A DNA stretch of 38,611 nt from Minisyncoccota bacterium (GTDB taxonomy: Bacteria; Patescibacteriota; Minisyncoccia; Minisyncoccales; CG1-02-41-26), in the NCBI GenBank assembly GCA_028718785.1, contig JAQULB010000006.1:1-38611 (forward strand). The letters are read 5' to 3'. Below the pieces are notes generated by a model. The model saw only the letters and a program-made list of their open reading frames with translations. It was not told the origin of the DNA and ran no database searches. The translations under genes were made by a program, and so were the position numbers. This document shows, one piece after another, positions 7,843 to 32,052 of the stretch (positions within the stretch are counted from its first letter, which is position 1; each line of letters starts with the position of its first letter).

Positions 7843-7963
7843 TCGCTAGTCAAACTTTCAGCTCTATCTTTATTCAATTCTGAGACGGTCATCTTGATAT
7901 TGAATCAAATGTTGTGGTTGTTTTTGACTTTTGATCTTTAATCTTTGATTTTTGACTTTTGAT

Positions 7964-10378: not shown

Positions 10379-10495
10379 ATTTTTATATTAGCATATTTGT
10401 AGCCAGCTGCGTTCCTCGAATTTTTGATATTTAATTTGCATTTTTGCTTGCCCTGTAGGGAGCTTGCTCTCCTTTGGGGATATTTAATTTTTGAT

Positions 10496-14507: not shown

Positions 14508-17500
14508 TTATTGTTGTTCCAACTCTTGCTTTAATTTTTCAGCCAAAGATCCAAGCGGATATCGCAAGGTCCACACTAAATGACAAAACGGTTCTTTTAA
14601 TGGCGCCAAAGTTAAAGGCAACCCAGAAATACACAAAGGCACAGGCCCCAGCTGAGGGCAATAACTTTGCCCGCAAGAGCAGTTTTCGTTGGCGTAGTTT
14701 ATAGCCGTGGCCAAGGCCCACAAAAGCTGGGTTTTGTTTTTTATATCATTTGCTTTTTCATAAATTGGACCCACTATGTCGTTTAAATCCGGGTCCATTG
14801 GATAAATATCTTCTCCGGGAATTTCCACTGATAGCTTGCCAAGTCCAATGGCTTTGGTGGGTTGGCGTCTGGTCATATCAATTGCTCTTAAATTTTGCCT
14901 TACCATTGCAAAACTAGCGTCAAGCTGATTAAACTGCTCGTTCACATTCGGACAAACTGGTCCGCCATTTTCACCTGTTAAGGGTTGGCTGTTGCCTGCA
15001 TAGCTTATCATTGGGCTTGCAATACACTTTACATATTGAATTTTAACATTATCTTTAGTGATTTTTTGAATTTCATCTGTTGAATTCCATAATTCAGCAA
15101 ATTTTTTAGGCGCTTCTTTGATTAAATTTACAACATCCTCAGCTCTTTGGCGAACTTTTTGCGCGTCAAAATACAAAGCGCTTAACCCATTGCTGGCTGC
15201 TGTGTATGACTTAACTCCCAATAAAACTGAAAGCACTTTCATAATTTCATTCAAGGGCGTTCGCATATCCGTGGTTGATTGAGAGCAAAGCTTTAAGGCC
15301 ACTTCTCTGGCTTGTTGGGCATCTGCTGTGTTGGCGGTTAAGTCAACTCCTAAGTCATTGCCAAATATCAATGGAATAGAAGAGCATCCAAAAAAGTCCC
15401 CGATACTTTTGTTGGAATTCTTTGGGTCTATTGTTGCAGTGATAATTTTTCCCTGAGTGGCGTCATTTGATTGGCAAAATCCGCTAACCGCTTTTTTTAC
15501 ATTTGCTATATCCTCATCTTGGCTTGTAATTTCGCCTGTGCCTGGTTGTAATTTTCCATCTTTCCACACTGGCGGTTTTGTGGTGAACTCGTTGAGATTC
15601 CAGTCCTTCCAATTTTCGTCAATTGCCACCTTACCACCAAACGCTTTTTGCAAAATACTAAAATTATAACAATCCCTAGCAAAATCAATCTGATAGTTAA
15701 GGTTGTTGCACTGCTTGGCTAATCCATCTAAATTATCGTATATAACAGCTCCCAAGTCATCAATAGCCCCAATGCTTGTGAGCACCTCTTTTAAGGCGTT
15801 TAAATTGGCAATCTCCTGCTGGGTTGATATGCACATATCTTGAGCGCCTTGCCAATTATTTGCGCCAACTGGTGGCCATTGTTTAGAGCCATCTGTTGGA
15901 TTGGCGATTGGATCCCAAACAATATTGGGGGTTATGTCTCTTTGCCCATCTTCATAAGAATTAGGGGCATTGCTACCTTTGTCGCATAATATCACCCCCT
16001 CGCTGGCATCAAGCGCGCTTTGACAATATTTGTTTGTTACTTTAACACAAAACGGGTCAACTTTATTCATGCCAGCCCCCCGTGTTCCACTATCAGGATT
16101 AAGGCAAAACCATTTTGGACATTTTATGTGGTCAGGTCCAACATCCCCGCGAAGTTTGTTTAACTGGTCAATTCTATCTTTAATATACTTGGAATTATCT
16201 TTTAAATTTTCCAACACATCTAAATCAACGCTGGTTAAAATATTACATTGATTTTTTAGCGTGTTGTAGCCCTCTTCAGTATTTCCCGTACCTTGAGCGT
16301 TTGGGGGCAGAGCTTTGGGAGGTAGCAAGCTAAGATTTACAAAAACATCGCCCTCTTTTTGAGTTAAGCGGTTTTCGCACTGGCTTTGAATATCTGCTGG
16401 ATTATTGGTTAAAATTTGTTCTGTGATATTGCAAGCAGGCAAAAGCTTTTGGGAAACAGTGTCGTTGCCCCAAATTAAATCCCACCACAAATATCGGGCT
16501 TGAGTTAAAACATTGCTTGCTAAATCTGTGTATTTTTTTTCGTCAACATCAACTTTATTGTCTTTTATTAAAGCGTCTATTTTTGGTGTTGTGTCTGTTT
16601 TGGGAATGTCTGTGAAAGCGTGTTGCATTGCTAACATTAAATAATTATTCACAGAAGCAGAAACCGCGTTGAATCTTTCTTCTAATGTGCTTAATGGATT
16701 TGCCAATAAATTTGTTTTAAAATACTCGTAGTTTGAAGTGCCAGTTTGTTGACCAACATAAAGCGATGTTTTTTGATCGCATTTTTTTGACGCTAATGTC
16801 CAAGAAGAGCACGAAATTGTTTCTGTAATAACCTTGCCATCTTTATCAAGCGTGGCATTGCCATCTTTATCAAGGGGAGACCTATAAAAACTGCAACTAT
16901 TATTATTTTCTTGTGGACAACCAGCTCTGCAACACTGAACTTTTTCGTCTACCTCATCAACCAAGTTTGGTTTTATAGTAACTGGGTTCATATCCATTGA
17001 CGGCTCAATGGCTTTTATATTTTCACCTGCTTGAATTAAGCCAAAAGCCGCGTTTTCAATATCAAATAAAATATCAGGATAAACTGTTAGTTGGTCAAAT
17101 GTTCGGCCATTGCTTTCTTCAAAGCACGCTAATTTGCATAGAAATGTGCTATTACCCGGACTTCCAGAGCATTTACCAACGCCACATCGATACAAATTAC
17201 CAAGCCCTTGTGGTCCAATTTTTGCGTAAGCAAAATCAATAACACCATAATCATCAAGATTAACAACGCCATCTCCATTCATATCTATACTATTGTTTTT
17301 TAAAATATTTATTGCCCTGTTAAACCCATCAACTATATTCTTTAGCGTTCTTGTTTGATCATTATCTCCCACTGCCACAATAAGTTGATTCAACGCTGTT
17401 ATATTGTCGTTAATAGTGGCAATGGCGCTTTGGGCGTCGGGAATCTGTTTGCCTATAATGTCTTGAGAATTAATTTTTAATTTTAAGATTTTATTTATCG

Positions 17501-20500
17501 TAGTGCTGGCAGTGGCTGATTCTTGATGTTCTGAAGAAAACCATTCCATTGGAGCGTTCCAGTCGCTTTGCAATCCTTGAAACGAATCGCTTATGTCTTT
17601 GATTACGCTTTGTAAGTTCTCGTCAATGGTAATTATGGCGTTTTTTAAACTTCCCCTTTGGGCCTCAAGATTCTCTATCTGTGTTTTGCCTTCGTTGTAT
17701 TCAACACAACCATTGCTATAAATTGGTTCGTAATGTTCAAAGCATTTATACTTATCGTAAATATTCTGCTCCAACGCACAATAACGGTTGCTGGTTCTGC
17801 AAAAATTATCAAAAGAAGCGTTACATTCTGATAGCGTGTTAGGGCAAGTGTTAATAACACAGCCAGAATAACAATACTGCTTTGCTGTTTGAGCAAAAAC
17901 TTTTGGAATAGCAATTAAACTTTTAGCAAAACTTTCCAATCTTTGCTGTAAATTATTTAAAATATTTTTAGCAAACGGCGAGGCGCTTTTCCCTGAAACC
18001 GAACAATGCGAATCAACATAGCAATCCCCCCTATTTATACAATTCATATTGGACTCATAGGTTGGCCCTGTTTGGCACATACAATAGGGCTTGGGTCCGT
18101 TAACATCCACCAAACGACAACTATAAGTTGGCGATGTGGCGTTGCATCTATTGTCACAATTTGATGTTGTATAAGCGCCGTTTTCATCATCTCTTAAACA
18201 ATTTGCCCCAGAGCATCTATAATGTTTTGTATTTGAACCAGGGGGGGGAGGAGTGGTTCCTGCAAGCTCATTGTCATTGCAAGTTGATTCAAGGGGATAA
18301 CAACCCCTTAAAAAAGCGCATTGAGCGTCGGTATCTCGAGGACTTTCTTGGCAATTACACCAAGGAGCTAATGGGCTAATGTCAAAAAGATAACGGCACA
18401 GGGTGCTACCTAGATTTGGATTTGGTTTTTGGCACGAATTTCGGCAAGTTGCAAGCGAAGTGTAAACACCTGAAGAATTTTCTGAACACACATAATCTGG
18501 CGAACCAGAACATTTGTATTTAGGGGGAGTAATATCAGGAGTACCAACATTATTTATACAATTTTGCTCAGTGGAGTAACAATCTTTTCTTTGGGGAACA
18601 TCGCTAAGCATTCTATTGGCACAAACAAAACTGCTTTCTTGTGTGGGATATTCAACGCACTTGCACCAATAATTAGCGCCTGTTCCTAGTTGGTTGCTGA
18701 TATCTCGGCATTTATAATTTCCAGAGTCAGGTGGCGCGCTCACACATTTATTCTCGCACTTTGAATCTGTATAAATACCATTACCATTTCCCACATTGCT
18801 ACATACCGCCCCATTGCATTTGTATTTTTCATATTGACAATCAAACGAACAGCCGTCTTGGCTTTCTGTGTTTCCATCATCACATTGTTCGCCTGTTTCA
18901 GTTTTATTATTACCGCACACAGCGCCTCCCGGAAGATTGCTTGAACAATCTTCACAGCTTTGGTTTAAGCAATCATCACATTCTTCTTTATAGCTTGGAC
19001 TTCCTGTGTCTGGATTGCCAAAATATAAATCTTTGTTAGTTTGCAAGCCCTTGTCGCAAGCAACTCCAATATCACAACAAGCATTAGCTCCCGGGCTGTT
19101 GCCTTGATCAGCGCAACAATTCAAATAATTTTTGCAAGATGTTTCATTATCTCCAAAAATTTTAGTTTGAAAAATTCCACCCTCGCACCTATCTCTTAAA
19201 ACCATATTATTTTCTTTTGCGTAACAATTCCGACAATTTCCCCTGTCGTCTCTTAAACAAGTGGTTATATCTTGTGTGTTGTCTATTGGGCAGGACTCCA
19301 CTGAACAAGTGCCATTGAAGCCGTCTTTTGGATTGCCATAAATAATAGAATTAATTATTTGATCCACCAAAGCTTGCCACTGCTCTTTGTTGTCATCGTT
19401 TAGTGTTTGGGCTGTTGCTTTAATTTTTTCAAGAATATCATTAGCTTGAGCGATTTTATAAACCACAATGGGCTGTTCTGGGGAAACACCCAGCTCTAAC
19501 GCTTGTTTAACATCATCAATTTTTTCCGCATTGCTCTTTAAAATATTGATTTTTTCATCCCAATTCTCGTATGCCACATCTGCGTTGTATCCTTGGCTCC
19601 AAGCGCTAGAATTTATTGGGGTGGGAGTATTTGAGTAAAACAAAATGTTTTCCCAGTATTGTGCCCCCTCCAATGGATTAGGGGCTGTGTGTAAATTATC
19701 AACGCAAGTATTTAGATTTTCTATATTATTTTTAATTTGATTTAATCCCAAGCTGAAAAACCCTATGTCTCTTTGAATGCCTATTCTCAGAGATTGTAAA
19801 GATTCTTCTATTTTCTGACGAACACCCGGGCTATCTTCGGAGCCACCCCAGCTTGTGCTTTCTGAATATAGGGCGTCGAGTTCTCTTATATAACTAAGAG
19901 ACGGAAATAAATCAACCATATAATGCAAAAAATCTGAATGCCTGCCTTCCACTGTGGTTCCTTTGCGATCAACACCACCAGGAAACTCATATTCATAAAG
20001 ATTTCTATAATCCGGAACTATATTGGGATTACTACAAACATTTACGCATTTTCCCTTCCCTCCTAATAACAAATCTAAAATTTTCGTTACCGCAATTGCG
20101 TCTTTTCCGTGGCTAATTAAATACTGCCGAGCCAATAAAAAGTTTTTATAAGTGCCAACTCGTCTGCCTAAGTCCTCCCAATAAAGTCGCCAATTTTTAT
20201 TTTGATAACTAATATCACACTTGCCACTACTTTTATAGCAAATCAAATCGCATTGTCCTTTTTCCGCCGCTGTTGGTGGGCAAGATTCATCAAGGCAAGG
20301 GTTTTCACAACCCACAATTTTTTTTGCGATATATTCGGGATTTAAAAGCTCAAAAGCGTCTTTCCATGTTTGCGAGCCATCAGTGGCAGTTATAAAATTA
20401 TCCAGCCAAGTGCCAGTACACTTTGCGCTTTCGCCAATCTTAACACCATTTCGCAAGTAGCAAAGAAATGACGGGCTACTTTCGTCTCCCGTATTCACAT

Positions 20501-22118
20501 ATCCCGAAAAATCAAGCTCAATATTTCTTGTGGGTAATGTTGTTGTGCAGTAATAAGGATAGTTTTCAATGGGACAATCTTTGTTGCTTGGGTCGCAAAA
20601 ATCGCTCCAGTCACCTTTTTGTAAATCGCTTAAATTACTGCCGTCTTTCAAATTAGCGGTTTGGGAAATATCGCTCATAAACTCATCTACTGAGCGGAAA
20701 AATAATTGAAAATCGTTTAAAATGCTTGTTAGTTGTTTTTTCTTGTCGCTTTGGGCTTCTATTTGAAAGAAAAATGAAAACTCATCCTCATTTTTAAAAC
20801 TGGTTCTTATATTTTCCACGCTTGATTTTAACTTTTCATTGGCTTGTATGGCTGATGATTTAGCAGTTGCAAACTTTAAGTTATTTTGAGCAAAATTACC
20901 AAGCATATCTTGCATTCCATTAACCGCTTTTTCAACCCTGCTGGTATTTAAAACCGCGCTGGCAGCCACTCCACCCAAAAGCCCATTGCCAGCTGTTAAA
21001 GCGCTTCCTGCCTTGCCTTCAAGCCAGCCAATATTTCCTCCACTGCTCACCCCAATTTCTTTTAATTGATTGCCTCCATAAATAGACGCCACAGCGCCCC
21101 CGCCATATATTAAAACATCGCTCCACTTTAAACCCAAATTAGTAAAGCTGGCATACATTGAAGATAATTGCCCCATCACATTAAACAAATCATTTAAAAA
21201 TGTAACCCCAGAGCTTAAAGCGTCTTTAATGGCAGTGTAAATTTTAAACGCCTGATTTATCATTTTGGCAATGTTTAAAATTTTCTGAATAACTGTTAGC
21301 CAGCCCCCAGGAATAAATAAAGCCGCCACATCAAGCAACGAAACGCTAAAAGCCACTTCGCCAATCCTCAACGAACAATTGGTGCGACAGTTTCTTATAA
21401 ACGAACAATCCGTGAATGGATCGGTGGCGTTGAAAATTTTAAAAGCTGAGTAAACTTCTTGGGCCGCTGATGTTTGCAACCTGTTTAAATAAATGCAGGC
21501 CTTATTTTTTGCCAATATTTTGCTTTCGCATTTTTCCCCAGATCCCGAGCAATTATTATCCCCGGGCAAGGGGATGGACAATTCACAAATCTCTGGCAAA
21601 GATGTTTTGGGAATTGTTAGCTCGCCTTTTTTAGAATTAATACAATCTGGAGGAATCTCGCTTGGCATACCCTTGAGCATACTCGTTGTATCTGCTATGC
21701 ATACTACTTTTTCATCAAAGCTCTTTTTTTCATCACAAGATGCTTCAATATACTTATCTAAACAACCAGGCACAAGATCTGGCTCCTCTAAATCAATTTG
21801 GCTTTGGACTTGTTTGCCGTCAATGCTTAATGTGAATTGCGAAAATGGATTAACCTGTTTAATGCAATTTCCATTCCCATCCTTTTGGGCGCAATTATTT
21901 GGCAGGTTGTTAATTAAAGGATATGAGCCAACTTTTAAAGCGCCTTTTTCAGTTACGGTAATGTCTGGTAGGGCAATCTTGGTGGTTAACTTTTTTAACC
22001 AGTCCCCAACCAAAGAGGCCTGAGCGGGCTGGCGAGCTGGAACAAATTGCAAAAACAACGACAAAATCGTTAAAACGCAAACAAATTTATTAATTTTTTT
22101 AAGAAAATTCTTTTTCAT
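14508..22118 (-). CDS. Giant (2536 aa) Cys-rich secreted surface protein with a DUF4215-like repeat, tandem Cys modules and a dockerin/EF-hand-like motif
   Basis: Signal peptide MKKNFLKKINKFVCVLTILSLFLQF; 'CGNNKTETGEQCDDGNTESQDGCSFDCQYE' resembles the Myxococcus Cys-rich repeat; 'DMNGDGVVNLDDYGVIDF'; three tandem two-part Cys modules. Confidence 0.75.
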   Translation of the reverse strand: MKKNFLKKINKFVCVLTILSLFLQFVPARQPAQASLVGDWLKKLTTKIALPDITVTEKGALKVGSYPLINNLPNNCAQKDGNGNCIKQVNPFSQFTLSIDGKQVQSQIDLEEPDLVPGCLDKYIEASCDEKKSFDEKVVCIADTTSMLKGMPSEIPPDCINSKKGELTIPKTSLPEICELSIPLPGDNNCSGSGEKCESKILAKNKACIYLNRLQTSAAQEVYSAFKIFNATDPFTDCSFIRNCRTNCSLRIGEVAFSVSLLDVAALFIPGGWLTVIQKILNIAKMINQAFKIYTAIKDALSSGVTFLNDLFNVMGQLSSMYASFTNLGLKWSDVLIYGGGAVASIYGGNQLKEIGVSSGGNIGWLEGKAGSALTAGNGLLGGVAASAVLNTSRVEKAVNGMQDMLGNFAQNNLKFATAKSSAIQANEKLKSSVENIRTSFKNEDEFSFFFQIEAQSDKKKQLTSILNDFQLFFRSVDEFMSDISQTANLKDGSNLSDLQKGDWSDFCDPSNKDCPIENYPYYCTTTLPTRNIELDFSGYVNTGDESSPSFLCYLRNGVKIGESAKCTGTWLDNFITATDGSQTWKDAFELLNPEYIAKKIVGCENPCLDESCPPTAAEKGQCDLICYKSSGKCDISYQNKNWRLYWEDLGRRVGTYKNFLLARQYLISHGKDAIAVTKILDLLLGGKGKCVNVCSNPNIVPDYRNLYEYEFPGGVDRKGTTVEGRHSDFLHYMVDLFPSLSYIRELDALYSESTSWGGSEDSPGVRQKIEESLQSLRIGIQRDIGFFSLGLNQIKNNIENLNTCVDNLHTAPNPLEGAQYWENILFYSNTPTPINSSAWSQGYNADVAYENWDEKINILKSNAEKIDDVKQALELGVSPEQPIVVYKIAQANDILEKIKATAQTLNDDNKEQWQALVDQIINSIIYGNPKDGFNGTCSVESCPIDNTQDITTCLRDDRGNCRNCYAKENNMVLRDRCEGGIFQTKIFGDNETSCKNYLNCCADQGNSPGANACCDIGVACDKGLQTNKDLYFGNPDTGSPSYKEECDDCLNQSCEDCSSNLPGGAVCGNNKTETGEQCDDGNTESQDGCSFDCQYEKYKCNGAVCSNVGNGNGIYTDSKCENKCVSAPPDSGNYKCRDISNQLGTGANYWCKCVEYPTQESSFVCANRMLSDVPQRKDCYSTEQNCINNVGTPDITPPKYKCSGSPDYVCSENSSGVYTSLATCRNSCQKPNPNLGSTLCRYLFDISPLAPWCNCQESPRDTDAQCAFLRGCYPLESTCNDNELAGTTPPPPGSNTKHYRCSGANCLRDDENGAYTTSNCDNRCNATSPTYSCRLVDVNGPKPYCMCQTGPTYESNMNCINRGDCYVDSHCSVSGKSASPFAKNILNNLQQRLESFAKSLIAIPKVFAQTAKQYCYSGCVINTCPNTLSECNASFDNFCRTSNRYCALEQNIYDKYKCFEHYEPIYSNGCVEYNEGKTQIENLEAQRGSLKNAIITIDENLQSVIKDISDSFQGLQSDWNAPMEWFSSEHQESATASTTINKILKLKINSQDIIGKQIPDAQSAIATINDNITALNQLIVAVGDNDQTRTLKNIVDGFNRAINILKNNSIDMNGDGVVNLDDYGVIDFAYAKIGPQGLGNLYRCGVGKCSGSPGNSTFLCKLACFEESNGRTFDQLTVYPDILFDIENAAFGLIQAGENIKAIEPSMDMNPVTIKPNLVDEVDEKVQCCRAGCPQENNNSCSFYRSPLDKDGNATLDKDGKVITETISCSSWTLASKKCDQKTSLYVGQQTGTSNYEYFKTNLLANPLSTLEERFNAVSASVNNYLMLAMQHAFTDIPKTDTTPKIDALIKDNKVDVDEKKYTDLASNVLTQARYLWWDLIWGNDTVSQKLLPACNITEQILTNNPADIQSQCENRLTQKEGDVFVNLSLLPPKALPPNAQGTGNTEEGYNTLKNQCNILTSVDLDVLENLKDNSKYIKDRIDQLNKLRGDVGPDHIKCPKWFCLNPDSGTRGAGMNKVDPFCVKVTNKYCQSALDASEGVILCDKGSNAPNSYEDGQRDITPNIVWDPIANPTDGSKQWPPVGANNWQGAQDMCISTQQEIANLNALKEVLTSIGAIDDLGAVIYDNLDGLAKQCNNLNYQIDFARDCYNFSILQKAFGGKVAIDENWKDWNLNEFTTKPPVWKDGKLQPGTGEITSQDEDIANVKKAVSGFCQSNDATQGKIITATIDPKNSNKSIGDFFGCSSIPLIFGNDLGVDLTANTADAQQAREVALKLCSQSTTDMRTPLNEIMKVLSVLLGVKSYTAASNGLSALYFDAQKVRQRAEDVVNLIKEAPKKFAELWNSTDEIQKITKDNVKIQYVKCIASPMISYAGNSQPLTGENGGPVCPNVNEQFNQLDASFAMVRQNLRAIDMTRRQPTKAIGLGKLSVEIPGEDIYPMDPDLNDIVGPIYEKANDIKNKTQLLWALATAINYANENCSCGQSYCPQLGPVPLCISGLPLTLAPLKEPFCHLVWTLRYPLGSLAEKLKQELEQQ
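18005..18824 (-). repeat. Three tandem Cys-rich protein modules (A+B) inside the 2536-aa protein
   Basis: A: YKCNGAVCSNVGNGNGIYTDSKCENKC / YKCSGSPDYVCSENSSGVYTSLATCRNSC / YRCSGANCLRDDENGAYTTSNCDNRC. B: YKCRDISNQLGTGANYWCKC.. / LCRYLFDISPLAPWCNC.. / YSCRLVDVNGPKPYCMC.. Confidence 0.85.
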
Positions 22119-22123
22119 TGTTT

Positions 22124-25100
22124 TTACTTGGTAAGCGAATCCAAGGGAAGCTGTCCATCAGCCATCATTTCAGCCACATTTTCTAAATGCGAAGAAAATC
22201 TATTAACAATACACTGGCTCACTGTGGAGCAACAATAACCTTGGTCTTCAACAGTTGGAGTTGTTCCTGTGGGAAGGGGAGGGAGAGTTTGTTTGTAAGT
22301 TTCGTAAAACTTACAAACGCCGTTTGCTTGGTCTTTTGTTTCATAAGAAGAATCTCCGTTTTCATCTGATGCTCGACACTTGCCACCTGCGTCAAAATTA
22401 ACTGCTCTGGCTTTTTTGCAAAACTTTATTACAGGAACGCAACACTTGCTGTTGTCGTTGGGGTTTTCCACCTCATTTGCCTCACAACCCTCTAGTGGCT
22501 TTGGTCTGCATGTTAATGGCTCTGTTGTTTGAAAACCATAAGATGTGTTGTCGTCGGGATTATTGGTTTCAGAGCCCGCAAAACAACATATCCGGTGAAC
22601 CGCGCCATCAATAAATTGTTGTTCCACACTTGGTCTTTCTCCCGACAATACATCGCATTGCAAAACTTTATCATCCACTTCTCGACATCTTGGTTGACAA
22701 GACTCGCCTTTGGCCAAAATACAACACTCTTTTTTGTTGCTTGTTGTTATTCTTTCAACCTCGCCTTTTTTTGTGTCACACTGACCAGCCATGGCCCCAG
22801 TTGTTGGCTGGGGGTAACAAGGCGCGCCAGCAATATCATTGGCTGTATTTTTACCAACATTAAATCCATAAAATTCCGCTAACCACTGAGGGGCTATGCT
22901 TTGGGGCCAATCAACCAAAGCGCTTTGCAATCCGTCTTGAAGCGCTTTAACTCCGGACTTAGCGCCTTTATCCGCCCAATCTTTTATATTAGTTATAGGT
23001 CCGCCAATTTTATTCCCTATAAGCGCGTCAAGCCCGGTTAAAGCCCCTAATGTGTCAACAATTGGCTGGCCCAAAGCAGTATTAGCGGAAATTGCGTCCA
23101 TTAAACTTTGACCCGACTTAATAGACAATGGCTTGTTTAAATATGTTGCCACTAAATCAAGAGGAGTTGATTTTAATATGTCTGTTATTTTTGCGCTGTT
23201 ATTTTTCCACGCTGTGTCAATTTTCGCATCGCATAAAGCAGGGTCTATTTGGTTGCAAATATAATCAGCTATTGTTTGTTGGCTAAACAATTTATCCATT
23301 ATATCTCCAATTGGAGTTGTCATAAAATCAAGCGTGTCCCCAAAAGCCACTTTTGCTGGGTTTGGTTCTCTATAAACCAAAATCAAGTTTTCTCCTGCTG
23401 TTGGTTTGTAAAAATAATAGCTTACAGCCACAGCGTTTCTTTTATCTGTTAGCATTCCCAGGATATTTGCTTGGGGAACATTGATTTGTTTTTCAAAAAA
23501 CACATTTATGTTTTGATCAGCTGGAACAATAAGATCATCAATTGGCAAGCCATTGGCTTGTAAATCAGCAATTATCGTGGGAGAACAGCCAGACCTAACA
23601 GTTTTATTTAAAGCCAAACAGCCCATTGAATCAGAAATTGTTGTTATATAAGGGAACACCCCGCTAAATCCTGTATCATTTACAGGCATTGTTTGTTGCA
23701 GTTCTCTTAAAGCATCAATGGGATCTCTTGTTTCCATATAATCCAAAAGTTGGCTTAAACCAGCTGGTTTTTCACCCACCTTATAGCAAAGATTAAGATT
23801 TGCGTCACAGCACAAGCCCTGTCCGCCTCTTTCAATAAACTGCTCGCCCTTTTGACAATCCGAAGGACTGCCATCTTTTAAATCTTGCAACATATCAAAT
23901 AAAATTTGAAATTCCTCAGGTTTAATATAATTTTTTAAAGGCAAGTCAAGCCCAAAAACTTCTTTGGGAGCTTGATTAAGCATATCGCAAAAAGCGCGCT
24001 CATCAGTGCCTTCTTCGGTTTGGGGACAAACCTTGTCCACAAACGCTTGATAGGGGGTTAGCCCTAAAATTTCATCTTGTTTAAGTAAATTTCTAAGAGT
24101 TAAATCTTGAACACTCAAACCTTTATTTAATATTTCAACAAAAGAAGAAAGCCCAAAACCTGCTCTCTTTTTTTCTTCCACATCTGTCCAAGCAATTTCT
24201 CTTTTTTTAGCTGCTGCTTGAATATCGCTATCAAACACTGGAAAATCATTATCCATATCAGCGTAAAATTGCGTTTCATCATTTTTTTGGCTCGAACTCC
24301 TATCGCTCAGCAATGGCTTTTGAGTTGATAAAGAAATTAAAGAATAAAAAATTGAATTTTGTGCTAAAGAACTGCAAGTTTGGCACACATTTTCATCAGC
24401 ATAACAAGAACTATTGGTTATTTTTGGGCAATAATACTTGCAATAACATTGCCCGGGACAATTGGCTTGATTGCCATAGGAACCACAGCTCTTAACTATG
24501 GTGTCTTTAATAATCTTGCCCACTGTTGTTTGCCCAAAAGCCACGCTGGGTGAGCAAGCCCCATAAACAAAAGCGCACCAGGGCTTTAAATTTATTTGAT
24601 CTGATGTTAGTTCTGAGTCCTTTTTAAAAACCGGAATAATGCCAAACTGGCTGGAGATAATATTTTGGCACAAGCTCGCTGGGGCTATAAAGTTATTATT
24701 CTCCTGCTTTAAAATTGGCAGTGTTCCACAAACCAAATTCTTTGGCGTGCCATCTTTGCCCACAAGCTTTTTAATAGCGTCTAAAGGAGAGTTGGGGAAA
24801 AATATGCTTAACAGCGGTCTGTTAAACCAGTTATTAATATCAAAACATTTATCTTCCCCGCCAATGCAAATACTGCTTAAAACATCAATGAGTTTGCTGT
24901 TTAAGGTTTCAACGCCTTTACAAAGGTTGTCTTCAAGAGGCACTCTGTCTCCCACCGCAGTATTGTTGTTTCTGTCGCACATTATTGTTATTTCTTGCCA
25001 AGGAGTGGTGTTAAAGGCCTTGTCAATTTTACAAATTGCGTCGCCTGTTTCTTGGGGAATATCCATTTTTTGCTCTATGGAGTTTTTACCATCCCAAAAA

Positions 25101-28100
25101 ACGCCTTTTGGCATATCAATTGTAAAATTAAACTTTACTTCCTCATTATTAGCTTTTTGTATGTCAGTTAGTTTCGCTTTTTCTTTTTTGTATTGATCAC
25201 AAAAATTGCCTAACTGAGTGGTTATATTGCTTTGTAAAATTCCAGAGATTTGAGCGGGTAAAATTCCTCTCACTGATGTTGTTAAAAAGTCCTCCATACC
25301 TTGCTGAAAACCAGAAATGGCATTCCAATAACCCATTAAGGGGTTTATAAAATTATCTTCCACAAAAACCCGAGCATAAGCCAAAGCAAACTGCAAAGCG
25401 GTTTCGGTAAAAGCGGTTGCCATTTTTTCTGCGTAATTGACCATACCTCCAGCAATATATGTTTCGGTTTTATCCAAACTGGTAATGGTGTCTGCTGCAG
25501 CTTTTGCATCTTGAGCTAAATTATCTTGTTTATAACAGCCAGAACCCCCCTCGCTCCCATCCCAAGCATACCCGGCAACATTCCCGCAAATTGATTGAGC
25601 AGACTTCTTTGGCACTGAAAAATACTTTACACTTTTTATTTTTGCAGTTTCTGATAAATCTGTTGCGTCTTCAAAAACAAAACTTTGGGGTACTTCTATT
25701 TCTTGCTTTGCTAATGTGGTAATTTCACCTGGCGTCATTAAAACACACTTTCCAGAATCCGCCTCTGTTTTTCCTACAAAATTTGTCCTGCCTTTCAAAT
25801 ATTGCCCGTTGTTATCTTTATAAACATATCCTTGCTCTAATTTTTCAAAACAAGCAGAAAGAGTTAAGTGTTCAATGCCAATGCCAAGTTTGTCAAATTG
25901 GTTTTGTGCCCATTCGTGCATTGGGTCCCCAACATATTCTTTTACTAAAGCGTCGGCCATATTTTTAGAAGCGCTTTTAGCTAATGATTTTGTTGAACTA
26001 ACTGTGTCATCAAACCAATTATTAAAGCTTGTAATTTGATTAACAATAAAGCTTGGCAACACATCTTTCATTTGCTTGTCAAGCAAGGTGTTGAGCCCGG
26101 GAATTTGATCTTGGAAGGGTGTGGACAAAGCGCCTTTAAAAATTGTGTCATAAACATTCTTCATTGGCGTGTTTAAAAATTTGCCAATTGTGTGTTCTGA
26201 ATCATTTGGAAATAAAATGTTTATAACATTTGTATTTAAAATACTGCTAATATTTGGCAGCTCGCTTGCCAAACTGGCGTCAAAAAGATGGGAAAATGTT
26301 TTGGAAAGATAATTTGGAGGCACCCCATTAGATATTAAATTTTTAACGCAATAACAGCAGGTGTCGTTTAATGCAGACGCTATTGGGCAATTATTTTGGG
26401 AAAACTTTGTAATAATGTCTTGCGCTGCCTCATTGTTAGTTTTGCATCCAGCTGAAGCGCATTTAACTAAATATGTTTTAATAAGAGCAACGTTAGTGTC
26501 ACTAACAATTCCATCTTTTATACCATCAATGGTAGCTTGGGCTATTTTATCTTTCATATTTTGAATAACCGCTTTTAAGTGGTCAGCCGCCCCGCTATCC
26601 ATAACTGCTTTTACAACATCTTCAATTTGGCCTTGATTTAAATTATAGGTTGCTTGCCCAAAAGCCGAGGTTAGGCAATCCCTAAAAATTTGCTCAATTC
26701 CCTCAAGTGGCAAGTCGGTTAATAAAGAAAACAAATTATATCTTCTGGCATCTCTGGCAATGGCGTTGTTTTTGTCGGTAATAGTTAGATCTTGCACTCC
26801 TGCTGGAGCGTGAATAATGTAAAAGAAATCACTGCCACTGACCGCTTGGGTGATAATAAAAGCATCGTTAATCGCTTGTTTATCATACATACTTTGAGCC
26901 CAAGCAAAATTAGCAGTAAGCGGAGAAAAAAGCGACTTTAACCGAGCTAAAAATCCGCTTTTATTTTTAGTATCAATAACTATAGGAGCATTCATGTCAC
27001 TATATCCGTTTGTATTTAAAACAACCAAAGGATAACCAGCATCTTGTATTTTTTTGGCTTCATTGGCAAAATCAAAACCCCAATACCCTGTAGCTTGGCT
27101 GGTGGAAAATTCAATACTATTGGCATTTAAAGCGCGAAGGATTAAGTCAGCGCTGTCTAAAAATCGGGCGTCTATTTTTGCTCTGGCTTGCAATTTGGCT
27201 TGCTGTTCTTGGATTTGCAAAACTTTATATTTGATTAAAGCGTCTACTTTTATTTTTGTGGGGAATAGCGCGTCTTTTGGAGCAACGCCGTTATTTTTTT
27301 GGCAGTCATCAGGAGTGGTGGGAATACGAAGAAGGCCTTCCGTATTAGCATCTGTTATCAAAATCCAACAAGGATCTGATTTTATTGTATCACCCACTAA
27401 TTGGTCTGGCTTGCATACTCCCCCATATCTTGCGCAAACTTGGATCGCCCCATCTTTTGTTTCTCGCACATCATGTAAATCGCAAGTTAAACATCCATTG
27501 TAATCTTTTGCTGTTCCGCAATTATCTGCTTGATTCAAACAGGCCTGGCCATTCATTTGGTTTTGAGTTATTTTGGTTTTATCTTCAAGCCCGGGCTTGC
27601 ATCCAGAATTGCCCAAAGATGTATCAGAATATCCAAGCGATATTCCGCATTGACATTTTTTTTGCAAATCTTGCAATTCCAAAACCAACTGAGCCACTTT
27701 TTTTAACGCGTCGGCTGTTTCTCGCAAAGGTATTTCCGCTCTATATATTACTTGGTCTTGAACTTCTCCTGTTGCTTGAGCGCCTGTGAACAAAAAAGCA
27801 AAAACCTTGTTCCAAAACCCTTGATTATTTTTTGAGGGGGCAATAGCAACAATATTTTTTGTTGGTAGCACACATCCATTCATCCTAACTGGATCTTTTT
27901 CGTCCATATCTCTTAGATACTTTCCATTTTTATCCATTGTTCCTCCGTAGCCATCAGTTAAGCAATCCTTTCCGTTGATTTTTTCATAATACTGGTTGTT
28001 TTTGTCTATATGGATTTCTTCTTCTAAGTTATCTAACGAGCTATTTAAATCCCCAGCAAACGAAACCCTTTGAGCCACTACTGTGTTGGGGTTGTATGGG

Positions 28101-28549
28101 CTGGCGGTGGTTGAAGTAATTTGTTTGAGTTCTGGTTTTTGTAATGTTAAAGAAAGCAATTGAGGGTTTATAAAATAAAGAAACAAATAAGCGCAAATTA
28201 AAATAAAAAGCCCCAGCATGGCGTTGCTTGCCATTTGTTTTGATAAAGTTAAATATTTGGGCCTTGAAGAAGAAACAATATACAAAACCCCCGAAACAAG
28301 CAAAGCAATCAAACCAGCCCCAATGGATATAAAAAACACCAGCTTAAAAATATAGCTTGTGATAAAACCAATTTGCTGGCTTGTGGTTACATTTTGATAA
28401 TCGCTCAGCCGACCCAATCCCGGGATGTTGGGATATGAAAGCTCCAAAGCCAAAGCAAATCTTCCCATTAAAATAAAAATGACAACCAAAAAACCAAACA
28501 AAACTTTCTTAAGGGCTTTATGCCTTATGTTGCAAATTTCATGTTTCAT
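22124..28549 (-). CDS. Giant (2141 aa) secreted/anchored protein with VirB2/TrbC-pilin-like N-terminal module
   Basis: N-terminus 'LELSYPNIPGLGRLSDY...IFKLVFFISIGAGLIALLVSGVLYIVSS...AMLGLFILICAYLFLYFINPQL', the same layout as the two 694-804 aa proteins; long Cys-containing extracytoplasmic remainder. Confidence 0.65.
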   Translation of the reverse strand: MKHEICNIRHKALKKVLFGFLVVIFILMGRFALALELSYPNIPGLGRLSDYQNVTTSQQIGFITSYIFKLVFFISIGAGLIALLVSGVLYIVSSSRPKYLTLSKQMASNAMLGLFILICAYLFLYFINPQLLSLTLQKPELKQITSTTASPYNPNTVVAQRVSFAGDLNSSLDNLEEEIHIDKNNQYYEKINGKDCLTDGYGGTMDKNGKYLRDMDEKDPVRMNGCVLPTKNIVAIAPSKNNQGFWNKVFAFLFTGAQATGEVQDQVIYRAEIPLRETADALKKVAQLVLELQDLQKKCQCGISLGYSDTSLGNSGCKPGLEDKTKITQNQMNGQACLNQADNCGTAKDYNGCLTCDLHDVRETKDGAIQVCARYGGVCKPDQLVGDTIKSDPCWILITDANTEGLLRIPTTPDDCQKNNGVAPKDALFPTKIKVDALIKYKVLQIQEQQAKLQARAKIDARFLDSADLILRALNANSIEFSTSQATGYWGFDFANEAKKIQDAGYPLVVLNTNGYSDMNAPIVIDTKNKSGFLARLKSLFSPLTANFAWAQSMYDKQAINDAFIITQAVSGSDFFYIIHAPAGVQDLTITDKNNAIARDARRYNLFSLLTDLPLEGIEQIFRDCLTSAFGQATYNLNQGQIEDVVKAVMDSGAADHLKAVIQNMKDKIAQATIDGIKDGIVSDTNVALIKTYLVKCASAGCKTNNEAAQDIITKFSQNNCPIASALNDTCCYCVKNLISNGVPPNYLSKTFSHLFDASLASELPNISSILNTNVINILFPNDSEHTIGKFLNTPMKNVYDTIFKGALSTPFQDQIPGLNTLLDKQMKDVLPSFIVNQITSFNNWFDDTVSSTKSLAKSASKNMADALVKEYVGDPMHEWAQNQFDKLGIGIEHLTLSACFEKLEQGYVYKDNNGQYLKGRTNFVGKTEADSGKCVLMTPGEITTLAKQEIEVPQSFVFEDATDLSETAKIKSVKYFSVPKKSAQSICGNVAGYAWDGSEGGSGCYKQDNLAQDAKAAADTITSLDKTETYIAGGMVNYAEKMATAFTETALQFALAYARVFVEDNFINPLMGYWNAISGFQQGMEDFLTTSVRGILPAQISGILQSNITTQLGNFCDQYKKEKAKLTDIQKANNEEVKFNFTIDMPKGVFWDGKNSIEQKMDIPQETGDAICKIDKAFNTTPWQEITIMCDRNNNTAVGDRVPLEDNLCKGVETLNSKLIDVLSSICIGGEDKCFDINNWFNRPLLSIFFPNSPLDAIKKLVGKDGTPKNLVCGTLPILKQENNNFIAPASLCQNIISSQFGIIPVFKKDSELTSDQINLKPWCAFVYGACSPSVAFGQTTVGKIIKDTIVKSCGSYGNQANCPGQCYCKYYCPKITNSSCYADENVCQTCSSLAQNSIFYSLISLSTQKPLLSDRSSSQKNDETQFYADMDNDFPVFDSDIQAAAKKREIAWTDVEEKKRAGFGLSSFVEILNKGLSVQDLTLRNLLKQDEILGLTPYQAFVDKVCPQTEEGTDERAFCDMLNQAPKEVFGLDLPLKNYIKPEEFQILFDMLQDLKDGSPSDCQKGEQFIERGGQGLCCDANLNLCYKVGEKPAGLSQLLDYMETRDPIDALRELQQTMPVNDTGFSGVFPYITTISDSMGCLALNKTVRSGCSPTIIADLQANGLPIDDLIVPADQNINVFFEKQINVPQANILGMLTDKRNAVAVSYYFYKPTAGENLILVYREPNPAKVAFGDTLDFMTTPIGDIMDKLFSQQTIADYICNQIDPALCDAKIDTAWKNNSAKITDILKSTPLDLVATYLNKPLSIKSGQSLMDAISANTALGQPIVDTLGALTGLDALIGNKIGGPITNIKDWADKGAKSGVKALQDGLQSALVDWPQSIAPQWLAEFYGFNVGKNTANDIAGAPCYPQPTTGAMAGQCDTKKGEVERITTSNKKECCILAKGESCQPRCREVDDKVLQCDVLSGERPSVEQQFIDGAVHRICCFAGSETNNPDDNTSYGFQTTEPLTCRPKPLEGCEANEVENPNDNSKCCVPVIKFCKKARAVNFDAGGKCRASDENGDSSYETKDQANGVCKFYETYKQTLPPLPTGTTPTVEDQGYCCSTVSQCIVNRFSSHLENVAEMMADGQLPLDSLTK

Positions 28550-28552
28550 GTT

Positions 28553-30343
28553 TTAGGTTTCAAGGTCTTTTTTGGCCTGTTTTATTTTCACTAACTCTTC
28601 AGGAGAGCTGGTGATAATTTGGTCTTCTGTGTAAGAAGCCACTCCTTTTAAAGCCACTCTTTTTTGCCCAGCAATAAAAATACCTTCTCCCACATCACAC
28701 TGCAAAAGCATATTTTTTTCTTCATCGGTTAAAGCAAATGTTTCTTTGACAACATCAATAGCAGCTGAGCTTTGTTTTAATAAAAACTGCAAAGAAGAAT
28801 TGCTAACAATTGGCTTGCCATAGTCAGATCTCATAAAATCAGAAACATCTTGGGTGATGGTTGTTACTCCAAGCCAATACTTCCTGGCTCTTTTGCAAAT
28901 ACCATACAAAAATGAAGCCCCGTCTTCGGACTGCATAATCCACCACGCCTCATCAATCAATAAAATTCTTTTTTTAAGCGACTCTCTAATGGTATTCCAA
29001 ATAAAATGCAAGATAATAAACATTGCCATTGGCCTTAACTCATCTTCCATATCGCGCAAGCCAAAAACTGTAAAGCCCTTGTCTATTGAAATATTGGTGG
29101 GAGAGTTAAAAAAATTGGCATAGCTTCCTTTGGTGTATTTTTGCAATCTTTCAACTAATGACTCTGTGCCATCCATTGACGATAAAACCGCCTCAAGATC
29201 GGAAAGTAAGGGAATTTTTTCTTTCCATAAGGTGGGGTCAGAGTTTGGCACAATGTCCCGAGCCGCGTATGTTTCGGTGATGGCTCTATCAATAATGGCG
29301 TCTTCTTGGGCTGTGAGCCCTCCAAGCATTAAGCGAAAAAGCCCCACCATATTGATAACATTGCTCCTTAAAACATCGTCTGGGTCTTCGTCTTCTCGTG
29401 GAGTTGGCAAGTCAAAAAGATTTAAATGATTTTCTGAATTTAAAGAAACTTTAAAAAACGATCCCCCAACCGATTCGGTTAAATAAGCGTATTCATTTTC
29501 TGGGTCAACCACCATAATATCCACCCCCTGAATTAAATAACGCAAAATTTCCAGCTTAATAAAATAAGATTTTCCAGCGCCCGCTTTAGCAAATATTACA
29601 AGGTTAAAATTCTCTAAAGTAAATCTATCAAACAAAACTAAAGAATTGTTGTGTAGGTTTATGCCATAAAGAATGCCCTCGTTGGCTGATAGGTCGGGAG
29701 AAACAAAAGGAAAAATGCTTGATAATGGCGCTGTATTTAGGGGCGTGTTTACCATTAACTCGTCAATGCCATAAGGCATACAAGAAATAAATCCTTGTTT
29801 TTCTCTCATTAAGGCGGGTTTTACGTAAATTAACCGGGACTCAAAAATTGAACGCAAAAATGTTTCTGTTTCTCGCAGTTCTTGTTCTGAATCCCCGTAA
29901 ATTGTAATGTAAAGCCCCAGCCGAAAAACTCTTTCTCTGGCAGTTTGAAGTTCGTCTCTTAAATTTTCAATATCCTCGTAGGCAGTTTGCAAAGAAGGGT
30001 CGCGAATTAGGCCTTTTTCTTCTCTTTCTTCAATTTCTGCTTGAACTTCAGTAACTTTTTTCCGCAATTTTTTCAAAATTAAACCCGACTCAACCGGATG
30101 AATATGCATGGAGATGTCCATTGGAAAATTAACATTAATAATTGGCGCTAACCACCCAGTTGTTAAATATCTTGGATAAGAAAAAATAAAAAAGGACTTG
30201 CAAAGCCGTTCTCCCAATATTAAATAATTTTGTTTTACTTCAACAAGGGAGGGAGCGATAATATCGGCAATGTCAATGTCTTCGGCTTTAACTTCAAGCT
30301 GTTCTTCTGATTTTTTTTTAAAAAATGGTAATTGAAATGGCAT
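28553..30343 (-). CDS. virB4: VirB4-family T4SS ATPase
   Basis: Walker A 'IFAKAGAGKSYFIKLEILRY', Walker B 'KRILLIDEAWWIM', 'VVDPENEYAYL', 'TTITQDVSDFMRSDYGKPIVSNSSLQFLLKQS'. Confidence 0.92.
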   Translation of the reverse strand: MPFQLPFFKKKSEEQLEVKAEDIDIADIIAPSLVEVKQNYLILGERLCKSFFIFSYPRYLTTGWLAPIINVNFPMDISMHIHPVESGLILKKLRKKVTEVQAEIEEREEKGLIRDPSLQTAYEDIENLRDELQTARERVFRLGLYITIYGDSEQELRETETFLRSIFESRLIYVKPALMREKQGFISCMPYGIDELMVNTPLNTAPLSSIFPFVSPDLSANEGILYGINLHNNSLVLFDRFTLENFNLVIFAKAGAGKSYFIKLEILRYLIQGVDIMVVDPENEYAYLTESVGGSFFKVSLNSENHLNLFDLPTPREDEDPDDVLRSNVINMVGLFRLMLGGLTAQEDAIIDRAITETYAARDIVPNSDPTLWKEKIPLLSDLEAVLSSMDGTESLVERLQKYTKGSYANFFNSPTNISIDKGFTVFGLRDMEDELRPMAMFIILHFIWNTIRESLKKRILLIDEAWWIMQSEDGASFLYGICKRARKYWLGVTTITQDVSDFMRSDYGKPIVSNSSLQFLLKQSSAAIDVVKETFALTDEEKNMLLQCDVGEGIFIAGQKRVALKGVASYTEDQIITSSPEELVKIKQAKKDLET

Positions 30344-30351
30344 GTTAAAAG

Positions 30352-30481
30352 TCGTTAATGAATGAAGTGGCGATTAGCCACGAGTGAATTTACGAATTTT
30401 TACACCCCGTGGAGTAGAAATTTGTCTCACAAATTTCTGTTCTAAATTTTTAGCAAAAAATTTAGAATTACTCCACAGGGT
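30352..30481 (-). promoter_or_regulatory. Leader element E4 (hairpin plus three-way-junction palindrome) directly 5' of virB4
   Basis: Head hairpin closed by TCGT/ACGA (30352-30355/30392-30395) with GTGGC/GCCAC apex; cloverleaf 30404-30481 with 13-nt outer arms (one mismatch) and two internal stems of 10 and 12 bp. Confidence 0.7.
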
Positions 30482-30537
30482 AAATTACACCAGCCGCTCA
30501 AATTTCGGCTTTTCGGCTCGCTTTCGCGGGGCGTCAT

Positions 30538-31173
30538 TTATTTAATCAATTCTGGAATAATTTCTGGGTAATAACCAAACTCGGCCTCTTTTGGATGATG
30601 CAAGCCCCAAAAAAGCTCTATCATTTCTGGGCTGGTTAAGGGCACAACATTGAGCCCGCACCTTTTTAAACCAATGGCCACAAACTCCATTCTTTGCATT
30701 AGTTGTTCTTTGCATCTTTTAATGGTTTCCTCAGTAAACGAGGGCATCTTGGGATTTATTTTCAAAGCCCCTCCATTGTTTAACCCCTCTCCCAAAGAAT
30801 AAGGCACAACAACAAAAAATTGCTTGGTCATAATTGTTCCCCCAGACACCATCCCTTCAATAAATTTTCTATATTCTGTTGTTTGAATTTTTAAAAGCTC
30901 GTTTTCTTGTTTTTCTTCAAGCTCTTTTAGTTTGTCAAAATAACCAGTGATATTTAACCTTCTTGATTGAACAACAATTTGACAGGAAAAATCCAAGGAA
31001 TTTAAAAAACTTTGAAATTGATAAATAATAGCGTTTTGTTCGTCTTCTGACTTTAAATCAAAATTAACCGAAGATATCATTAAAATCCCCCTGAAGGATT
31101 TATTTTTAAGCATCATTACGCCCTCTTTTATTTGGCTAAATTGCAAAAAATTTTGAGTGGATGAAAATGACAT
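30538..31173 (-). CDS. TraC-like/VirB4 N-terminal-domain protein (split VirB4 partner)
   Basis: 'LQFSQIKEGVMMLKNKSFRGILMISSVNFDLKSEDEQNAIIYQFQSFLNSLDFSCQIVVQSRRLNI' resembles the VirB4 N-terminal region; sits between prgI and virB4. Confidence 0.8.
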   Translation of the reverse strand: MSFSSTQNFLQFSQIKEGVMMLKNKSFRGILMISSVNFDLKSEDEQNAIIYQFQSFLNSLDFSCQIVVQSRRLNITGYFDKLKELEEKQENELLKIQTTEYRKFIEGMVSGGTIMTKQFFVVVPYSLGEGLNNGGALKINPKMPSFTEETIKRCKEQLMQRMEFVAIGLKRCGLNVVPLTSPEMIELFWGLHHPKEAEFGYYPEIIPELIK

Positions 31174-31181
31174 ATTAGAAA

Positions 31182-31290
31182 TTCTTAATTGAATGGTGAG
31201 CGATTAGCGAACCGTGAAATTTAGAAGTTCTTATACCCTGTTAAATAATTTCGCCTTTGGCGAAATTGCCCAAAGGGCATTCAACAGGGT
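31182..31290 (-). promoter_or_regulatory. Leader element E3 directly 5' of the traC-like gene
   Basis: Head hairpin closed by TTCT/AGAA (31182-31185/31223-31226). Cloverleaf 31235-31290: outer ACCCTGTT/AACAGGGT, inner AATTTCGCC/GGCGAAATT and GCCC/GGGC. Confidence 0.65.
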
Positions 31291-31301
31291 TCTCTGAAAG
31301 T

Positions 31302-31733
31302 TCAAACTTCATTTTCTTCCCCTGAAACTTTCGGAGAAAAATCCAACCTCGCCCCCAAAGAAGATAGCCGACTTTGGGGGGCCATTTTTAAGGGCGCCTC
31401 TCTTTTTTCAACTTTTTTAACCTTTTTTTCAACTAATGTAATTGGGGAGCTTGCTCTTTTTTTGTCCCAAACATAAACCCGCCCTCCAAGCAAAAAGCCA
31501 AAAGAGTGGAAAATAATTTGAGGCAAGGTTTGTCCGCCCACTTTAATAAATGTGGCCGCTAAAAAACCACCCCCAACAATAATTGTCAATAAAACAAAAA
31601 TAACTTTTGGCAAAATATAATACAAAACAAATAAAATAAATCCCAATCCAGCCATAATGGCTAAATTTTTAAATGTTAAACCAAAAGCCACCACTGACTC
31701 TCTTTCCAAAAATTTTGGCACTGTAAACTGCAT
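31302..31733 (-). CDS. PrgI-family protein
   Basis: 'MQFTVPKFLERESVVAFGLTFKNLAIMAGLGFILFVLYYILPKVIFVLLTIIVGGGFLAATFIKVGGQTLPQII' with typical two-TM layout, upstream of TraC/VirB4. Confidence 0.85.
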   Translation of the reverse strand: MQFTVPKFLERESVVAFGLTFKNLAIMAGLGFILFVLYYILPKVIFVLLTIIVGGGFLAATFIKVGGQTLPQIIFHSFGFLLGGRVYVWDKKRASSPITLVEKKVKKVEKREAPLKMAPQSRLSSLGARLDFSPKVSGEENEV

Positions 31734-31742
31734 GTCTTAGAA

Positions 31743-31839
31743 GTCGTTAATGAATGAAGTGGCGATTAGCCACGAGTGAATTTACGAGTTCTTAGATCCT
31801 GTTAAACGCGACCGACTTTAGGGAGCGTTTAATCGGGAT
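31743..31839 (-). promoter_or_regulatory. Leader element E2 directly 5' of prgI
   Basis: 31743-31787 is identical over 45 nt to 30351-30395; followed by hairpin ATCCTGTTAAACGC/GCGTTTAATCGGGAT (31796-31839). Confidence 0.65.
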
Positions 31840-31886
31840 ATTCCTTTTTAAGTTTAATGATTTGAAAATTCATTACAGATTCTTAC

Positions 31887-32015
31887 ACCCTGTGGAGTAA
31901 TTTTAAATTTTTTGCTAAAAATTTAAAATAGAAATTTGCCCTACAAATTTCTACTCCACGGGGTAAGTCCTCCGTAAGTTCTAACTTCGGCTAATCGCCT
32001 TGCCATCACTAACGG
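31887..32015 (+). promoter_or_regulatory. Leader element E1, inverted relative to E2-E4, promoter-proximal
   Basis: 78-nt cloverleaf 31887-31964 is close to the reverse complement of the 78-nt cloverleaf 30404-30481; head hairpin 31972-32015 closed by CCGT/ACGG. Confidence 0.65.
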
Positions 32016-32022
32016 ATTACTT

Positions 32023-32052
32023 ATTATACCATATCAAATTATACCATATCAA
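32023..32052 (-). promoter_or_regulatory. Sigma70-type extended -10 promoter for the T4SS operon
   Basis: Minus strand reads TTGATA (32052-32047), 18 nt, TATAAT (32028-32023) preceded by TGG (extended -10). The TTGATATGGTATAAT unit is tandemly duplicated. Confidence 0.7.

Follow-up and report, generated by a model that had tools for sequence, protein, structure and literature searches.

The window, a 38,611-nt stretch of an 841-kb genome (G000), carries on its minus strand prgI, a virB4-type ATPase gene and, between them, a 211-aa gene without a Pfam family (Table 1). The original prediction had named these as three consecutive T4SS genes, and its prgI and VirB4-type ATPase identities were borne out by Pfam. 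Its 'traC-like' label for the 211-aa gene was found to be unsupported because Pfam gave no match; the weak TraC match sits on the VirB4 protein, not on the 211-aa protein. Two adjacent very long ORFs (14508-22118 and 22124-28549, minus strand; 2536 and 2141 aa) lie directly downstream of virB4.

A structured leader had been described immediately 5' of each of the three genes, and the sequences, positions and start codons given for it proved correct, with copies abutting the ATGs at 30343, 31173 and 31733. It was found that each of these copies is the last hairpin (Hp3) of up to three abutting ones, with the ATG directly after it. The base stem of Hp1 is TAAAT...ATTTA or TAAGT...ACTTA, Hp2 has CCC...GGG ends and long AT-rich stems, and Hp3 reads GTGTAAGAACTNNTAAATT...AATTAANNATTTCTAAC. 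Copies are usually part of such a three-hairpin composite, which fills the gap between the stop codon (or a -10 box) and the ATG. The leader of the 211-aa gene is without Hp1, and an inverted copy (E1) noted in the original prediction turned out to be Hp1 of the prgI leader. The arms of the prgI-leader Hp2 form an inverted repeat of 78 nt (91%) with 30404-30481. A covariance model (R1) was built from the window-type copies.

Table 1. Genes and leader hairpins in the T4SS region of the window
Feature	Position	Strand	Basis and remarks
virB4-type ATPase gene	28553-30343	-	TraG P-loop, 3e-24
Hp3, virB4 leader	30344-30405	-	R1 model match 30341-30405, 81.8 bits; covariation; then ATG 30343-30341
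Hp2, virB4 leader (CCCTGTGGAGTAAT...CTCCACGGGG)	30405-30480	-	arms match GIY-YIG-holding hairpin of other copies
Hp1, virB4 leader (TAAATGACGCC...GTGTAATTTA)	30481-30540	-	opens with TAA stop of upstream gene
211-aa gene, between prgI and virB4	30538-31173	-	no Pfam match
Hp3, 211-aa gene leader, TTCT/AGAA type	31174-31236	-	R1 match 31171-31236, 65.3 bits; then ATG 31173-31171
Hp2, 211-aa gene leader (ACCCTGTTGAATG...ATTTAACAGGGT)	31235-31290	-	terminal repeat as in nuclease elements
prgI	31302-31733	-	PF12666, 5e-6
Hp3, prgI leader	31733-31797	-	R1 match 31733-31797, 78 bits; ATG 31733-31731, GA-type spacing (CTAAGACATG)
Extra hairpin module, prgI leader, between Hp2 and Hp3 (AAGGAATATCCCGATTAAACGC...GCGTTTAACAGGA)	31798-31886	-	sequence; at other loci too
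Hp2, prgI leader (ACCCCGTGGAGTAG...TACTCCACAGGGT)	31887-31964	-	arms recur inverted at 30404-30481
Hp1, prgI leader (= E1)	31961-32028	-	R1 match on + strand 31961-32028, 24.2 bits; directly after TATAATAAG box

Several leaders of the genome (regions of C1:135716, C7:8445, C7:2202 and C1:86158) contain a nested GC-rich palindrome, CCGCCTGCAACGCTGTCAGCCCGCATCGCTATGGCGAAGCATTGCTGGCGGGTAGCACTGCGGGCAGG. Elsewhere in the window, two diverged repeats with ATTTATTTAAYRGGGTA (7947-8005 and 10479-10537) resemble the right terminal repeat of a nuclease element.

Covariation and folding of the leaders

The covariation proposed for the hairpin exceeded chance. In a MAFFT alignment of 32 copies, which was not fitted to any structure, 96.9% of the cells pair, and 34 double-change cells were counted (shuffles, 7.7; slid controls, 0-3). 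For 104 distinct copies there were 242, compared with 64 in shuffles and 7-31 in slid controls, in an alignment that had been fitted to the model and is biased in its favour. Since copies within one genome are related, more weight should be given to the slid control. The pair adjoining the start codon was seen as G-C, A-U, C-G and U-A, while two A.A mismatches are invariant and a pyrimidine mismatch takes the form C.U or U.C in 29 of the 32 copies. From the covariation together with these fixed mismatches it follows that the folded form, as DNA or RNA, is under constraint.

RNA folding of the whole stop-to-start gap gave three helices in about a quarter of the analysed gaps, which span it from the first base of the stop TAA to the first base of the ATG and leave 2 unpaired exterior bases; the virB4 leader folded in this way. 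For 40 gaps of 140-280 nt the folding energy per nucleotide was -0.31, compared with -0.17 in shuffles, and three or fewer exterior bases were left in 30% of the gaps but in only 4.5% of the shuffles. The modelled fold suggests that the insert would hold stop and start adjacent in the mRNA. A Shine-Dalgarno sequence was found at 3 of the 46 genes that lack the element, compared with 4/46 in a control stretch, and the genome shows no Shine-Dalgarno enrichment. The lack of such a sequence between element and ATG, noted in the original prediction, is thus ordinary in this genome and was dropped as a distinguishing character.

These observations bear on a reading in which the leader is a silent insert: the three abutting hairpins would bring the start codon next to the stop codon, or next to the transcript's 5' end, so that termination-reinitiation or near-leaderless starts continue, and the pairs would be kept by selection for silence and not for movement. 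Besides the folds and the absence of Shine-Dalgarno enrichment, two features of relatives are in its favour: their empty gaps are mostly just a few nucleotides long, and at prgI of G001 a -10 box lies about 9 nt upstream of the ATG. Some copies, however, are predicted to fold otherwise in the minimum-energy model, and palindromic elements fold anyway. We place this reading clearly short of an even chance; it can be combined with the mobile element favoured below.

Copies across the genome and among relatives

A search of the genome with R1 returned 85 matches, of which 83 were analysed after the two weakest had been excluded. For sixty-five of them, the ATG of an ORF of 45 aa or more is no further than 12 nt away. 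The last 18, according to our own grouping, comprise two ahead of short ORFs (bL36 and one of 33 aa), seven in which two Hp3 stand in tandem and the match is to the first, eight that are Hp1 detected on the opposite strand, and one without an ATG. Thus, of the 68 start-proximal copies, 67 have a start codon at their end; the single exception is C9:23069-23116 (CTAACATA). Judging from their sequences, the genes with a copy include most of the S10-spc operon, with a dense occurrence before ribosomal protein genes, as well as bS21, bL36, uL11, ssb, gyrB, mreB, nusA, serS and two-component genes. Because the model finds 83 places across the genome, the leaders are not a T4SS feature, and T4SS-specific regulation was ruled out, with about 67 genes of unrelated function bearing the element. 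Neither the window nor a ribosomal protein locus gave a match above the curated family threshold in Rfam 15, and the original prediction had not recognised the element as a named family either.

Clustering at starts was observed, and copies scattered without regard to start codons, the outcome named beforehand as pointing to a selfish repeat, were not. Start-codon clustering alone does not show regulation, because the element is mobile, as described below. Such clustering might also arise with no targeting at all, if insertion were random and survived only at start codons, since in dense genomes most other insertions would disrupt genes. Against this, the near-exclusive placement at starts was found despite 79 non-coding ATGs, compared with 24 gene starts, in the window.

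When 80 relatives were searched with the model under stricter filters, matches were nearly confined to the same family, with 64 in G001, 16 in G022 and 0-2 in most others; G002, of the same genus, gave none under these filters, and the element was absent from most of the order. The hosts named by a GTDB pattern scan include Gribaldobacteria, Paceibacterota and one Kaiserbacteria contig. Copies in relatives mostly end at the ATG of an ORF too; the Kaiserbacteria copy precedes merely a 17-aa ORF.

Ribosomal protein loci, located with a partly generic uL14 probe that served for locating only, showed presence and absence at the same sites in close relatives. In G002 the stop-to-ATG spacing of this operon is mostly 3-21 nt. 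Copies precede uS10, uL2, uS19, uL29 and uL14 in G000 and not in G001, uL3, uL22 and secY in G001 and not in G000, and uL16, uL24, uS14, uS8, uL6, uL18, uS5 and uL15 in both, where the junctions often differ in Hp2 or Hp3. At prgI of G001 there is only TACAATAGAATAATT ahead of the ATG and no element, and the 211-aa gene of G001 does have a copy, with other hairpins. Judged by sequence comparison, such junction differences between sister species are the behaviour of a mobile element. In the window-type copies the original stop-to-start bases are gone, and at uS5 the last codons are gone too. The uS5 frame enters the left end of the element in both G000 (C1 near 84900-85000, locus L070) and G001, and the last residues of the G002 version are replaced by element-coded ones. 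In the ribosomal protein operon of another family member (G007, locus L163), quite different AT-rich palindromic spacers run from stop to ATG at many junctions; they may represent an unrelated element that behaves similarly.

The original prediction had named first a cis-acting RNA of the T4SS operon. Freed from the T4SS, this would be a shared 5'-UTR structure that steers translation start, or a processing site that yields leaderless mRNAs, selected on many genes. The strict orientation and placement ahead of the ATG, the covariation with constant A.A mismatches, the fold nearly devoid of exterior bases and the high density before ribosomal protein genes would all fit. The element is nevertheless common to unrelated genes, missing from most of the order and not conserved before orthologous genes, since orthologues in sister species manage without it, and the hairpins differ among copies at one junction. 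A nuclease gene, moreover, occupies the leader in some copies. We consider a selected RNA leader unlikely, while the hairpins may have a secondary effect on translation or processing.

GIY-YIG nuclease genes and start-codon duplication

Inside the Hp2 of several copies we found a GIY-YIG ORF of about 89 aa (PF01541, 4e-17, in a G001 copy); the 3' arm of Hp2 encodes its C terminus, and its stop codon is in Hp3. Such a gene is present within Hp2 in G000, G001, G008 and G022 and directly ahead of a copy in G017; the window's own copies are without it. The two nuclease modules of G000 are alike save for their last residues and are flanked by different Hp1 and Hp3. The Hp2 arms common to nuclease-bearing and gene-less copies are terminal inverted repeats, and the nuclease-bearing form is the full-length relative with the same ends. 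Compared by eye, the uS19, uL16 and uS5 copies retain AAGATTTGAG...CTCAAATCTTACTT, apparently what a deletion has left behind.

Related nucleases were found in 128 of the 247 genomes of the order. The fetched regions and search loci gave 70 distinct loci, 41 of them with good inverted repeats. An ORF start lay at the right end in 22 of these 41, compared with 9% at random positions; in the CCC class an ATG was flush with the left end in 17/30 and at the right end in 20/30. Because the automatic terminal-repeat finder was wrong at some loci (L218 and L223, for example, and L262, where the right end was missed), these counts are approximate and probably low. The presence of the ATG itself at most CCC-class junctions also speaks against insertion without targeting, which we regard as very improbable.

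These nuclease elements have (A)TG duplicated, and empty sites in close relatives confirmed this in two cases. With slashes marking the junctions, the filled yidC site of G173 reads TACTTTATG/CCCCGTAGG...CTACGGGG/TATGGAT and the empty site of G043 reads CCTTAAAAAAATATGGAT; the filled lepA site of G201 reads AAAATG/TTTACCC...AACAGGG/TGAATCAA and the empty site of G204 reads ATAAAATGAATCAA. In G173 two insertions follow one another, a nuclease copy and then a short one, with TATG before, between and after them. The shared minimum of the duplication is TG, which fits the 2-nt stagger of GIY-YIG enzymes. Target-site duplication was thus seen for nuclease elements of other families. For the three-hairpin form found in the window, a clean duplication is not seen at the left junctions: TAA/ATGACGC fits one, yet recurs within copies, and TAAGTAATCC does not fit. 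These left junctions of the Hp1-containing form, with their original bases lost, are the weakest point of the mobile-element argument.

At some loci (L244, L298, L284, L294 and L271) a related GIY-YIG gene sits instead at a tRNA gene or close to one. At L244 a GC-rich hairpin splits an apparent tRNA copy, and at L298 the gene is flanked by tRNA-like halves.

The hairpins might instead be a MITE family moved by another enzyme, such as a Y1/RAYT transposase, with the nuclease as a passenger that homed into it. Y1 genes are indeed present in G000, G001 and G022, and the nuclease-holding Hp2 resembles an independent unit that stands alone before ftsZ in G004. However, G002 has three Y1 genes and no elements, the ends lack a GTAG-type tag, and nuclease elements found elsewhere carry repeats of their own and duplicate the start codon. 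We consider movement by another enzyme quite unlikely in general, and Y1/RAYT mobilisation was ruled out because Y1 genes do not follow the distribution of the element.

Interpretation and comparison with known systems

The leaders are probably a mobile element that targets start codons, encoding a GIY-YIG nuclease or derived from such an element as palindromic non-autonomous copies, and not a T4SS regulatory RNA; the palindromic element mentioned as an alternative in the original prediction is thereby upheld. In this proposal, a mobile palindromic element in genomes of the ultra-small CPR bacteria (Patescibacteria) would be linked to a small GIY-YIG nuclease, which some copies encode within the middle hairpin, whereas most have lost the gene and retain the hairpins alone. 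The start codon would be the insertion site. Across the wider nuclease family, the element lies between inverted repeats with (A)TG duplicated, as a staggered cut would give, so that the gene retains its start codon; insertion exactly at start codons would thus let genes survive the element. The nuclease would drive movement, and the three-hairpin form of the window presumably arose and moves likewise, from a common origin with the nuclease elements. The fold may be kept since movement needs it, or since the folded insert sets the stop codon (or the transcript 5' end) beside the start codon, or for both reasons. Two further observations count against this explanation: G000 has just two nuclease genes of this kind for about 67 copies, and some related nuclease genes are found at tRNA genes or close to them.

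Neither start-codon GIY-YIG elements nor this leader turned up in a literature search, which covered few subscription journals or preprints. The closest earlier study that it yielded describes insertion sequences in CPR rRNA genes, some encoding GIY-YIG proteins and others short and ORF-less; its authors considered GIY-YIG outside spread by homing (PMC11270868). Those inserts share with the present elements the CPR hosts, small GIY-YIG proteins, lack of an intron match and short ORF-less forms, and their sites at the tops or bases of stem-loops were counted as a further likeness; unlike them, the elements described here use start codons, have terminal repeats, show a duplication and are accompanied by dozens of short derivatives. 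Free-standing GIY-YIG homing endonucleases of phages (Seg type) are likewise small genes between genes. They home to long sites by copying flanks, whereas the present element has inverted repeats and no long conserved homing site was found: the flanking genes are unrelated and the shared target is just the start codon, (A)TG. Rickettsia palindromic elements are also mobile palindromic repeats tolerated at genes with foldable RNA, but they sit in frame within ORFs, and the present elements lie between stop and start.

Prokaryotic MITEs (reviewed in PMC10969869) are similarly short, AT-rich, gene-less and present in many copies with inverted repeats; they usually stem from transposase elements, whereas here the full-length relative is found at start codons and carries a GIY-YIG nuclease gene. 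REP/BIME palindromes with RAYT transposases (PMC3733652) resemble the element in their imperfect palindromes, fixed mismatches and inverted pairing, here of Hp1 and Hp3. Unlike them, the element is 48-105 nt long, lies at gene starts, has GTGTAAG/CTAAC ends in place of a GTAG/CGTC tag, and is not tracked by Y1 genes. A group I or II intron was rejected, with no Rfam match and an element between genes, not interrupting one. An integron attC site was also rejected: its core order (5' RYYYAAC ... GTTRRRY 3') is reversed here (GTAAG...CTAAC), and the copies precede scattered core genes.

More broadly, and with confidence a little short of even, we suggest that a widespread class of GIY-YIG elements in Patescibacteria targets the start codon and rebuilds it on insertion, and that in the three-hairpin derivatives of one family the entire stop-to-start gap is folded away, which would make insertion in essential operons, even before most ribosomal protein genes, translationally silent. 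Where mobile elements avoid harm, they usually do so by inserting at tRNA, rRNA or intergenic safe sites; a user of start codons, if true, would have a safe site at every gene. It would also explain numerous small GIY-YIG genes and palindromes between genes in CPR genomes, and it makes testable how genes without a Shine-Dalgarno sequence work despite a folded insert of 150-300 nt before the ATG. For annotation, such leaders should not be taken as T4SS regulators.
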